In this document: positions 107 to 21,445 of the stretch, piece by piece | How the letters are laid out: every line of letters begins with the position of its first letter | Numbering within the stretch: the first letter of the stretch is position 1 | NCBI GenBank assembly: GCA_947624375.1 | Contig: CANQKD010000014.1 | Location: 1-64,000 of the forward strand | Reading direction: 5' to 3' | Source: an uncultured Clostridia bacterium | GTDB taxonomy: Bacteria; Bacillota; Clostridia; Oscillospirales; Ruminococcaceae | Length of the DNA stretch: 64,000 nucleotides | Made by a program: the position numbers and the translations under genes | The notes under the pieces: generated by a model | The model's input: the letters and a program-made list of their open reading frames with translations, nothing else | Told to the model about the DNA's origin: nothing | Databases searched by the model: none

Positions 107-135
107 TTGACAAATATATTTTCATGGTGTATAAT
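107..135 (+). promoter_or_regulatory. Promoter of antisense RNA, module A
   Basis: TTGACA at 107-112 and TATAAT at 130-135 with a 17-base spacer. The 30 bases upstream (CAGGCGGTATGCAAAAATCA and following) recur before the equivalent promoter of module B at 14663. Confidence 0.8.
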
Positions 136-141
136 ATAAAT

Positions 142-235
142 AGAAAAAGGAGTGCCGGCTATGTACGATAGCGGCTAGCTCCCTAATGTATTGGTTTAGT
201 AACCGCAACGTTTTAGGGGCGTGCGGTTACTTTTT
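142..235 (+). ncRNA. Antisense (antitoxin) RNA of module A
   Basis: Predicted RNA of about 95 bases starting 6-7 bases after its TATAAT box. It begins with a hairpin (GGAG-U-GCCG ... CGGC-UAG-CUCC) whose loop carries the self-complementary GUAC. It ends in a perfect 10-bp terminator stem, AGTAACCGCA (198-207) with TGCGGTTACT (222-231), followed by T5. The RNA overlaps the end of the convergent peptide gene, whose stop codon lies just past the T run. This is inferred from sequence and from conservation with four other copies; there is no transcript evidence. Confidence 0.65.
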
Positions 236-239
236 ATTG

Positions 240-305
240 CTATTGATAATATCTCTGATAAGTATCAATAGCAATAATTACTAATATCAATGTGGTATTA
301 TCCAT
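240..305 (-). CDS. Small hydrophobic peptide, module A (candidate type I toxin, 21 aa)
   Basis: A 21-residue peptide starting MDNTTLILVIIAIDTY and ending RYYQ, with a hydrophobic stretch at about residues 5-13. It is the most divergent of five related peptide genes in the window, but promoter, leader and converging antisense RNA are all kept. The leader carries GCUCCC, which can pair with the GGGGGC forming its ribosome site. In the other copies the pair is CUCCC/GGGAG, so the change looks compensatory. Membrane insertion and toxicity are assumed by analogy with Fst/TxpA-type peptides. The short core and polar C-terminus may mean a weakened or dead copy. Confidence 0.5.
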   Translation of the reverse strand: MDNTTLILVIIAIDTYQRYYQ

Positions 306-391
306 TGATACCGCCCCCTTTCTTCCTCAGACTGAGGGAGAAGTCGGGAGCATAACCGCTTTCCGTTTCGTACCTCACCGGCACCGTATTT

Positions 392-421
392 ATTTTACCA
401 TATTCCGTCATCTTGTGTCAA
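392..421 (-). promoter_or_regulatory. Promoter of peptide mRNA, module A
   Basis: On the minus strand, TTGACA (421-416) and TAAAAT (397-392) with an 18-base spacer, the spacer length found before all five peptide genes. Confidence 0.7.
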
Positions 422-14690: not shown

Positions 14691-14719
14691 TTGACAAATA
14701 GTTTTTCATGGTGTATAAT
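14691..14719 (+). promoter_or_regulatory. Promoter of antisense RNA, module B
   Basis: TTGACA (14691-14696), 17-base spacer, TATAAT (14714-14719). Confidence 0.8.
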
Positions 14720-14725
14720 ATAAAT

Positions 14726-14814
14726 AGAAAAGGAGTGCCGACTTAGACTAAGCGGTTGTCTCCCAAATGAACAGTAAAAATAACCGTCAGATTAGAGGCC
14801 TGCGGTTATTTTTT
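14726..14814 (+). ncRNA. Antisense (antitoxin) RNA of module B
   Basis: Predicted RNA of about 90 bases. The 5' hairpin GGAG-U-GCCG ... CGGU-UGU-CUCC matches the other copies, but its loop is UUAGACUAA instead of a GUAC loop. The convergent peptide mRNA has a matching change (UGGACUA), leaving six of seven possible loop-loop pairs. It ends in the terminator AAATAACCG/CGGTTATTTT (14778-14814), which covers the stop codon of the peptide gene. Confidence 0.65.
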
Positions 14815-14907
14815 GTTAATGTTCTTTATTATCTCGCTTATGATCGCGAAGATCACAGCGAAGACTAATGAAAGAATGATAGCCAGAACTACATAAAGTA
14901 TTTCCAT
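14806..14907 (-). CDS. Small hydrophobic peptide, module B (candidate type I toxin, 33 aa)
   Basis: A 33-residue peptide, MEILYVVLAIILSLVFAVIF followed by a polar, Lys-ending tail IISEIIKNINKK. It has a single membrane helix at residues 3-24 and a charged tail, the layout of Fst, TxpA and BsrG toxins. AAGGAGGG lies 7 bases before the ATG, a strong ribosome site. The leader has CCCUC, which can pair with GAGGG of that site. The promoter (TTGACA-18-TATAAT) and converging antisense RNA match the four other modules, but the peptide is unlike theirs, so the control region appears to have been combined with a different peptide. Confidence 0.6.
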   Translation of the reverse strand: MEILYVVLAIILSLVFAVIFAIISEIIKNINKK

Positions 14908-15039: not shown

Positions 15040-15069
15040 ATTATAACATATCCTGTCGGTATATGTCAA
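15040..15069 (-). promoter_or_regulatory. Promoter of peptide mRNA, module B
   Basis: Minus strand: TTGACA (15069-15064), 18-base spacer, TATAAT (15045-15040). The transcript begins with a leader of about 125 bases. Confidence 0.75.
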
Positions 15070-15177
15070 GCGGCGCGGCTGTGATGCAGCAAGAAAAAGT
15101 GTGCCACGTGGCACATCTGCACGATATACTTTCCGAAGAAAAAACTGTTGACAAATCATTTTAAGTGGTGTATAATA
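15056..15177. repeat. 122-base direct repeat, first copy
   Basis: This segment recurs 392 bases downstream at 15448-15569 with about eight mismatches by eye. Each copy runs from the -35 box of a minus-strand peptide promoter to the -10 box of the next plus-strand RNA promoter. Each holds a 14-base palindrome (GTGCCACGTGGCAC at 15101-15114, GTGCCACATGGCAC at 15493-15506). This marks a tandem duplication of whole modules; the palindrome could be an operator. Confidence 0.8.
15148..15176 (+). promoter_or_regulatory. Promoter of antisense RNA, module C
   Basis: TTGACA (15148-15153), 17-base spacer, TATAAT (15171-15176). Confidence 0.8.
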
Positions 15178-15182
15178 TAAAT

Positions 15183-15280
15183 AGAAAAAGGAGTGCCGAC
15201 TTAGTACGATAGCGGCTAGCTCCCAAAAGTTTTTGGTTTAAAGTAACCGCAACGTTTTGAGAGATGTGCGGTTACTTTCT
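15183..15280 (+). ncRNA. Antisense (antitoxin) RNA of module C
   Basis: Predicted RNA of about 98 bases with the 5' hairpin GGAG-U-GCCG ... CGGC-UAG-CUCC, GUAC in the loop, and an unpaired CCCAAAA downstream. The terminator stem is AGTAACCGCA/TGCGGTTACT (15242-15276), whose distal arm contains the reverse complement of the peptide stop codon. CUCCC in the RNA is complementary to GGGAG of the peptide ribosome site. Confidence 0.65.
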
Positions 15281-15346
15281 GTTATTCGTTATATTATCAA
15301 TGTAATATAGAATAATGATAATAAGTATCATGGTCAAATAATCCAT
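15272..15346 (-). CDS. Small hydrophobic peptide, module C (candidate type I toxin, 24 aa)
   Basis: A 24-residue peptide, MDYLTMILIIIILYYIDNIT then NNRK. It differs from the module E peptide only at position 6 (Met for Leu). A hydrophobic helix (residues 4-16) is followed by a polar, basic end. GGGAGGTGGG precedes the ATG by five bases and can be masked by CUCCC about 40 bases upstream, with an internal hairpin CCTCTGTCAGAGG between them. Near-identity across copies with many third-position changes suggests selection on the peptide. Confidence 0.62.
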   Translation of the reverse strand: MDYLTMILIIIILYYIDNITNNRK

Positions 15347-15431: not shown

Positions 15432-15461
15432 ATTATAGCATATTCCGACGGTATATGTCAA
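15432..15461 (-). promoter_or_regulatory. Promoter of peptide mRNA, module C
   Basis: Minus strand: TTGACA (15461-15456), 18-base spacer, TATAAT (15437-15432). Confidence 0.75.
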
Positions 15462-15569
15462 GCGGTGCGGCTCTGATGCAGCAAGCAAAAATGTGCCACA
15501 TGGCACACCTGCACGGTATACTTTCCGAAGAAAAAACTGTTGACAAATCATTTTAAGTGGTGTATAATA
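15448..15569. repeat. 122-base direct repeat, second copy
   Basis: Second copy of the segment at 15056-15177. It places a further antisense-type promoter at 15540-15568, facing the 3' end of the HipA-like gene. Confidence 0.8.
15540..15568 (+). promoter_or_regulatory. Third antisense-type promoter, facing the HipA-like gene
   Basis: TTGACA (15540-15545), 17-base spacer, TATAAT (15563-15568), identical over more than 40 bases to the module C RNA promoter. The transcribed sequence after it is different. Confidence 0.75.
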
Positions 15570-20698: not shown

Positions 20699-20728
20699 TT
20701 GACATTTCTCGACAGGATATGCTATAAT
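20699..20728 (+). promoter_or_regulatory. Promoter of peptide mRNA, module D
   Basis: TTGACA (20699-20704), 18-base spacer, TATAAT (20723-20728). Confidence 0.78.
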
Positions 20729-20770
20729 ATTCTTGTGCCGGTAAGGTACGAAACGGAAAAGCAGGCAACA

Positions 20771-20868
20771 GCGTCTTCTTGCGAAGACGCTTGTAAGTTT
20801 TATTTCGCCGACAAAAGGTCGGCGATTTTTGTGCGACTTCATAGAAGTCGCTTAAAACCATAAAACTT
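20771..20868. repeat. Three-hairpin insert in the leader of module D
   Basis: Absent from the other modules. Holds GCGTCTTC/GAAGACGC (20771-20790), CGCCGAC/GTCGGCG (20806-20824) and GCGACTTC/GAAGTCGC (20833-20851). The last two lie between AAGTTTTAT (20795-20803) and its inverse ATAAAACTT (20860-20868). Confidence 0.75.
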
Positions 20869-20914
20869 CCCCTCCCATTCCCCCTCGGTCAGAGGTAGGA
20901 GGGAGGTGGGTTTA

Positions 20915-20989
20915 ATGGACTATTTGACGTTAATACTCATAATTATTATTCTGTATTACATAGATGATATCACGAATAATAAAAAATAA
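20915..20989 (+). CDS. Small hydrophobic peptide, module D (candidate type I toxin, 24 aa)
   Basis: A 24-residue peptide, MDYLTLILIIIILYYIDDIT then NNKK. It differs from module E at Asn18 to Asp and Arg23 to Lys, while several synonymous positions also differ. GGGAGGTGGG precedes the ATG. The leader is lengthened by the three-hairpin insert but still ends with CCCCTCCC upstream, able to pair with the ribosome site, around the CCTCGGTCAGAGG hairpin. Confidence 0.6.
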   Translation: MDYLTLILIIIILYYIDDITNNKK

Positions 20990-21081: not shown

Positions 21082-21110
21082 ATTATACACCATGAAAGAA
21101 TATTTGTCAA
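21082..21110 (-). promoter_or_regulatory. Promoter of antisense RNA, module D
   Basis: Minus strand: TTGACA (21110-21105), 17-base spacer, TATAAT (21087-21082). Confidence 0.8.
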
Positions 21111-21133: not shown

Positions 21134-21163
21134 TTGACATTTCCCGACGGGATATGTTATAAT
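21134..21163 (+). promoter_or_regulatory. Promoter of peptide mRNA, module E
   Basis: TTGACA (21134-21139), 18-base spacer, TATAAT (21158-21163). Confidence 0.8.
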
Positions 21164-21247: not shown

Positions 21248-21322
21248 ATGGATTATTTGACCCTAATACTTATTATCATTATTCTGTATTACATTGATAA
21301 TATCACGAATAATAGAAAATAA
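21248..21322 (+). CDS. Small hydrophobic peptide, module E (candidate type I toxin, 24 aa)
   Basis: A 24-residue peptide, MDYLTLILIIIILYYIDNIT then NNRK: a short N-terminus, a 13-residue Leu/Ile helix and a polar, basic tail. The mRNA leader (about 21170-21247) starts GUGCCGGUAAGGUACGAAAC, similar to the start of the antisense RNA, then has CUCCC, the hairpin CCTCTGTCAGAGG and GGGAGGTGGG. CUCCC can pair with GGGAG and hide the ribosome site. This is the cleanest copy and a good reference for the family. Confidence 0.65.
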   Translation: MDYLTLILIIIILYYIDNITNNRK

Positions 21323-21416: not shown

Positions 21417-21445
21417 ATTATACACCATGAAAAAATATTTGTCAA
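21417..21445 (-). promoter_or_regulatory. Promoter of antisense RNA, module E
   Basis: Minus strand: TTGACA (21445-21440), 17-base spacer, TATAAT (21422-21417). Confidence 0.8.

Follow-up and report, generated by a model that had tools for sequence, protein, structure and literature searches.

The window, i.e., the entire 64,000-nucleotide stretch of contig CANQKD010000014.1 analyzed here, carries five diverged copies (A to E; 58 to 87% pairwise identity) of a compact module, in each of which two promoters face each other and converge on a common hairpin that is predicted from the sequence to resemble a terminator. One promoter would yield a short antisense RNA and the other an mRNA for a hydrophobic peptide of 21 to 33 residues, with proline absent from all five peptides. 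Module A spans exactly positions 107-421, and the features of the five modules are as follows:

107..135, + strand: module A antisense promoter, TTGACA-17-TATAAT (consensus promoter match)
142..236, + strand: module A antisense RNA, a 5' hairpin and then the terminator common to the peptide mRNA (predicted ends)
240..305, - strand: module A peptide MDNTTLILVIIAIDTYQRYYQ (ORF)
392..421, - strand: module A peptide promoter, TTGACA-18-TAAAAT with TGn, spacer end TATGG (promoter match)
14691..14719, + strand: module B antisense promoter, 17-base spacer (promoter match)
14806..14907, - strand: module B peptide MEILYVVLAIILSLVFAVIFAIISEIIKNINKK (ORF)
15040..15069, - strand: module B peptide promoter, 18-base spacer ending in TATGT (promoter match)
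15148..15176, + strand: module C antisense promoter, 17-base spacer (promoter match)
15272..15346, - strand: module C peptide MDYLTMILIIIILYYIDNITNNRK (ORF)
15432..15461, - strand: module C peptide promoter, 18-base spacer ending in TATGC (promoter match)
20699..20728, + strand: module D peptide promoter, 18-base spacer ending in TATGC (promoter match)
20915..20989, + strand: module D peptide MDYLTLILIIIILYYIDDITNNKK (ORF)
21082..21110, - strand: module D antisense promoter, 17-base spacer (promoter match)
21134..21163, + strand: module E peptide promoter, 18-base spacer ending in TATGT (promoter match)
21248..21322, + strand: module E peptide MDYLTLILIIIILYYIDNITNNRK (ORF)
21417..21445, - strand: module E antisense promoter, 17-base spacer (promoter match)

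In the minimum-energy folds predicted for modules A, C, and E, the GGGAGG region is base-paired with the mRNA leader. The leader of module D additionally harbors an insert of about 100 bases between promoter and peptide (20765-20875), which contains three hairpins as well as a GC stem and T run that together resemble a terminator; inserts of this type recur in 17 of 114 modules of the genus at nearly the same leader position, and could stop or attenuate the peptide mRNA. Two further promoters lie beside the modules, namely an orphan copy of the module C antisense promoter with the same spacer and no antisense RNA after it (15540-15568), and the promoter of a neighboring gene (426-454), which is divergent from the module A peptide promoter and whose 17-base spacer ends in ATGGTG, thus sharing GGTG with the antisense spacers described below.

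Searches of Pfam, NCBIfam, and Rfam recovered no family above its cut-off for the modules or peptides of the window, and Rfam gave no relevant match at either gathering or permissive thresholds. The closest known systems are the par/Fst loci of pAD1 and relatives (PMC7472228), which share with the modules convergent promoters, a common two-way terminator, a small hydrophobic peptide, and possibly, as the above folds would predict, a leader that hides the ribosome site. In contrast to par/Fst, the window peptides lack the PXXXG motif, the modules have no Rfam match, and their 5' repeats match in the same sense, whereas those of par are complementary direct repeats. As described in PMC6563280, type I modules in Clostridioides difficile are comparable in being multi-copy, with small hydrophobic peptides, antisense RNAs, and sigma-A promoters, to which many of them add sigma-B promoters; there the toxin mRNA is stable and the antitoxin RNA unstable. 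Hol_Tox (PF16935) weakly matched the peptides of two relatives from outside the genus (L196, 19.8 bits; L174, 12.2 bits), both below its 23.3-bit cut-off, and did not match the window peptides. Plasmids contained no module match and phages a single one, covering 42 bases of the promoter end. The exact leader was not found in viral contigs; it occurs in 13 stretches of named genomes, nine of them from rabbit-gut Clostridia assemblies, and we took the four Streptomyces stretches to be chance matches because no promoter is present there.

All promoters of the five modules fit the full consensus or deviate from it at one position. The spacer rule reported by the first-pass annotation is borne out in the window: the antisense promoters are TTGACA-17-TATAAT in five of five modules (+107, +14691, +15148, -21110, and -21445), and the peptide promoters have an 18-base spacer in five of five (-421, with TAAAAT, -15069, -15461, +20699, and +21134). 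That annotation overlooked a TG at -15/-14, i.e., an extended -10 element (TRTGn), in all five peptide promoters; the antisense spacers end in GGTG in all five modules, which is not TGn. GGTG ahead of the -10 box is also seen in other promoters of this genome, among the matches listed. The peptide promoters are thus akin to extended -10 sigma-A promoters (PMC2613000; PMC8695583), in which TGn precedes the -10 box and the spacer has 18 bases, but depart from typical TGn promoters, where the motif mainly accompanies a weak or absent -35 box (PMC8695583), in joining TGn to consensus -35 and -10 boxes.

The annotation had further argued that, 17 bases being optimal, the antisense RNA should always be in excess. 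A 17-base spacer is indeed stronger than an otherwise identical one of 16 or 18 bases, and TGn promoters are likelier to have spacers of at least 18 (PMC2613000); however, 18 is described as a close second to 17, and a TG within consensus 17-base promoters can reduce output (PMC8695583). Given the extended -10 element on the peptide promoters, the members of a pair cannot be ranked by spacer length alone, and a constant excess does not follow. Nor can a promoter ranking be assumed from the par loci, as some of these have a large antitoxin excess, which would fit such a design, and others have roughly equal RNA levels, which would not (PMC7472228).

Genome-wide, TTGACA-N14-20-TATAAT occurs 226 times as against four for the reversed pattern, indicating that the promoter pattern is more than chance. 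We took as background the 100 matches listed out of these 226, leaving out 26 in modules and removing three more; among the resulting 71 non-module promoters the spacer is 17 bases in 62, 16 in four, 18 in four, and 20 in one. Hence, among the matches listed, 17 is the default spacer of this genome and 18 is rare. The RNase P RNA promoter likewise has 17 bases in nine of nine genus genomes despite unrelated promoter sequences (in L290 a chance 18-base match scored first and the 17-base match second), whereas tmRNA was of no use as a promoter control, as the eight examined had no consensus promoter and one weak 14-base match. A link between 18-base spacers and TGn in the other promoters of the genome was not established among the matches listed (3/4 vs 18/62, Fisher P 0.09), the 18-base cases being too few. 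That the 17/18 pairs are a coincidence among unrelated promoters might be entertained given that 17 and 18 are both common bacterial spacers (PMC2613000), but the rarity of 18 among the listed non-module promoters speaks against it, and the homology of the modules already refutes it, leaving this a negligible prospect.

To survey the genus, modules were collected with the leader and then with R1, a covariance model built for the antisense RNA, without demanding any spacer length. The source genome has 36 R1 matches below 1e-6 in 2.35 Mb, and matches were found in six of ten genus genomes, at 10 to 37 per genome. Many of these 36 copies form tandem arrays and several lie at contig ends (see L117, L116, L119, and L133). 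The four genomes without a module match (G001-G004) also differ in the RNase P promoter sequence in the three cases where it was found, which suggests two subclades within the genus. After discarding five weak opposite-strand matches, 127 of 132 were retained, and the antisense promoter is TTGACA-17-TATAAT in 126 of these, the last being lost to a register slip of the model. A peptide promoter and reading frame could be called in 114 of the 127, supporting the convergent layout; of the other 13, seven have no candidate at all and lie near contig ends. The 114 calls include three doubtful spacers (13, 19, and 22) and one ORF that looks wrong (L127:1069), and two pairs of antisense matches use one peptide promoter each (L125:519/664 and L162:701/837).

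Apart from the three doubtful calls, the genus peptide promoters comprise 97 of the form TTGACA-18, one TTGAAA-18, and others with spacers of 17 (eight), 16 (four), and 15 bases (one). TGn is present in 96 of the 97 TTGACA-18 promoters and in none of the 126 antisense promoters, and it is retained in all 13 peptide promoters with 15 (1), 16 (4), or 17 (8) bases; as these keep TGn and lose the 18-base length, TGn varies less than does the spacer length. All eight 17-base peptide promoters have a weakened -35 box (seven TTGCAA and one TTGAAT), as if the combination of a consensus -35 box, 17 bases, and TGn were avoided; the sole TTGACA-17 exception, in L152, has no readable peptide. Distinct spacers differ on average at 0.38 of sites in pairwise comparison, and the preservation of length through such sequence divergence points to some constraint on it. 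Thus, one part of the earlier claim that spacer conservation reflects selection stands, namely that length is constrained to some degree, but its proposed target, relative promoter strength, is not supported.

The copies within an array are not independent witnesses on this matter. Two peptide-promoter spacers of one array are 3.9 bases apart, whereas shuffling the array labels inside each genome puts this figure at 6.9 (0/500 shuffles as low), and pairs from one array are as alike when they encode different peptide classes (3.5 differences) as when they encode a single class (4.1). One array has seven modules with a single identical peptide-promoter spacer and six different peptides; hence, promoters follow the array and not the encoded peptide. 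In L117, identical promoters drive different peptides within an array, indicating that peptide and promoter parts reassort.

Across the wider taxonomic family, R1 matches are found in 44 of 148 sampled genomes and 36 of 123 genera. Outside the genus we kept 122 of 127 matches, from 34 other genera, dropping five that were weak, reverse, or cut; at one mismatch or less, 106 antisense and 52 peptide promoters are readable. The 50 confident pairs, from 20 genera, have antisense/peptide spacers of 17/17 in 35 cases, 16/17 in eight, 16/18 in three, 17/18 in three, and 17/14 in one, the last being a tie with 17. Looser promoter calls (74 modules; 49 at 17/17 and nine at 17/18) hold unreliable rows and were kept out of this count. 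The 17/18 arrangement is therefore not universal among homologs: 17/17 dominates outside the genus, many such pairs having perfect boxes on both sides, and inspection reveals reversals, viz., genus g63, where antisense spacers have 18 bases and the peptide promoters are TTGCGC-17, and one g12 module with an antisense spacer of 18 over a peptide spacer of 17. These findings go much of the way toward the outcome that the first-pass annotation had itself named as refuting its claim. In 14 of the 50 pairs the peptide promoter has the longer spacer and in one the shorter, a faint trend in the direction of the first-pass annotation, with seven of the 14 coming from one genus.

These comparisons bear on whether selection has set the spacers such that the antisense promoter is in every case the stronger of the two and supplies a constant excess of its RNA. 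The perfect antisense promoters in all but one of the genus modules and the weak -35 box wherever a called genus peptide spacer has 17 bases would be expected under such selection, but TGn on every window peptide promoter, the 17/17 pairs with perfect boxes, and the 18-base antisense promoters of g63 and g12 would not. We also considered and rejected the idea that antisense promoters are generally nearer to consensus: across the family their -35 box is closer than that of the peptide promoter in six cases, further in six, and equal in 52, and an apparent lead when both boxes are scored (30 closer, seven further, and 27 equal) carries a bias, since the model itself starts at the -10 box. With 17 the default among the listed promoters of the genome, 17/17 prevalent outside the genus, copies non-independent, and -35 quality equal, we regard selection on relative strength as unlikely. 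An alternative is that the two promoter types serve regulation and not basal strength, with the extended -10/18-base type having a response of its own to supercoiling, growth phase, or the supply of polymerase. The sharp separation of the two types in the genus is compatible with this, as is the finding that 18-base spacers show the sharpest fall under novobiocin; however, most of that effect is tied to promoter strength (PMC8695583) and other genera make do with 17/17, so that a regulatory role, too, appears improbable.

Instead, we read the observed sequences, spacers, motif, and distribution, with good though not complete confidence, as a multi-copy family of par-like, type I toxin-antitoxin-like modules whose two promoter types are ordinary sigma-A ones that descent has fixed, and in which the 17/18 pair is lineage-specific and not a universal strength setting. 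We infer that both RNAs are made, that the antisense RNA silences the mRNA, and that the peptide is toxic. Under this proposal, the antisense RNA, from a promoter that has just the -35 and -10 boxes and the usual spacer of 17 bases, and the mRNA for the small membrane peptide, from an extended -10 (TRTGn) promoter with an 18-base spacer, would be transcribed toward each other into the common two-way terminator, through which the former likely pairs with the mRNA and blocks or destroys it. In the genus, both promoter designs would go back to an ancestral module, would have multiplied as modules were copied inside arrays, and would persist because promoters seldom tolerate insertions or deletions. 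Three observations count against this explanation: the length held despite 0.38 differences per site makes pure descent without constraint insufficient, the weak -35 box in all 17-base peptide promoters looks as if a consensus -35 box were avoided together with 17 bases and TGn, and the peptide spacer is more often the longer one in the pairs outside the genus.

A separate feature of the modules lies in how their two RNAs begin. In module A the antisense RNA (142-236, + strand) and the mRNA (385-330, - strand) carry matched elements in the same sense, and B to E are alike. With one module from each of 21 genera, the first 60 bases of the antisense RNA score a mean of 15.2 in same-sense local comparison with the start of their own mRNA and 9.9 with the mRNA starts of other genera (0/5000 permutations), the own mRNA being best in 13 of 21. 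Within the genus the match likewise exceeds permutations within genomes and within arrays (0/2000 each; 111 modules). A variable triplet of the element is identical between antisense RNA and mRNA in 74 of 90 readable modules (of the 111), against an expectation of 31.7 and a permutation maximum of 46 (0/5000), and with one module per locus in 35.0 of 45 against 14.3 expected. The 5' elements of both RNAs therefore change in step across genera and among paralogs. A par-like complementary 5' repeat between leader and antisense 5' end was rejected: the complementary score shows no own-versus-other signal in the 21 genera (855/5000), duplex energy no own-module advantage (1858/5000), and leader duplexes do not surpass those of shuffled sequences (at or below 3 of 60 in 7 of 97 modules).

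Antisense control would lead one to expect complementary change, whereas same-sense change is seen. Either the two 5' ends have been repeatedly copied from each other or their matching is needed for function; the shortness of the common stretch argues mildly against recombination. It is possible, at slightly less than even odds in our view, that the 5' arm of the antisense RNA is a copy of that of the mRNA, either serving to displace the latter from a partner inside the mRNA or arising because one protein handles both RNAs. The opening parts of abstracts retrieved in a literature search held no account of a same-sense 5' match, which is not proof of novelty; if true, this mechanism would add a layer of recognition that the consulted passages of PMC7472228 do not report for par.

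The local nature of the 17/18 pair makes it unfit as a signature of such modules; of more use is the covariance model, with which the modules were detected in 36 of the 123 sampled genera of one bacterial family and at 36 copies in a single genome. The natural 17/18, 17/17, 16/17, and 18/17 pairs permit a direct test of promoter balance in type I modules, and the same-sense match of the RNA starts is testable by arm swaps.
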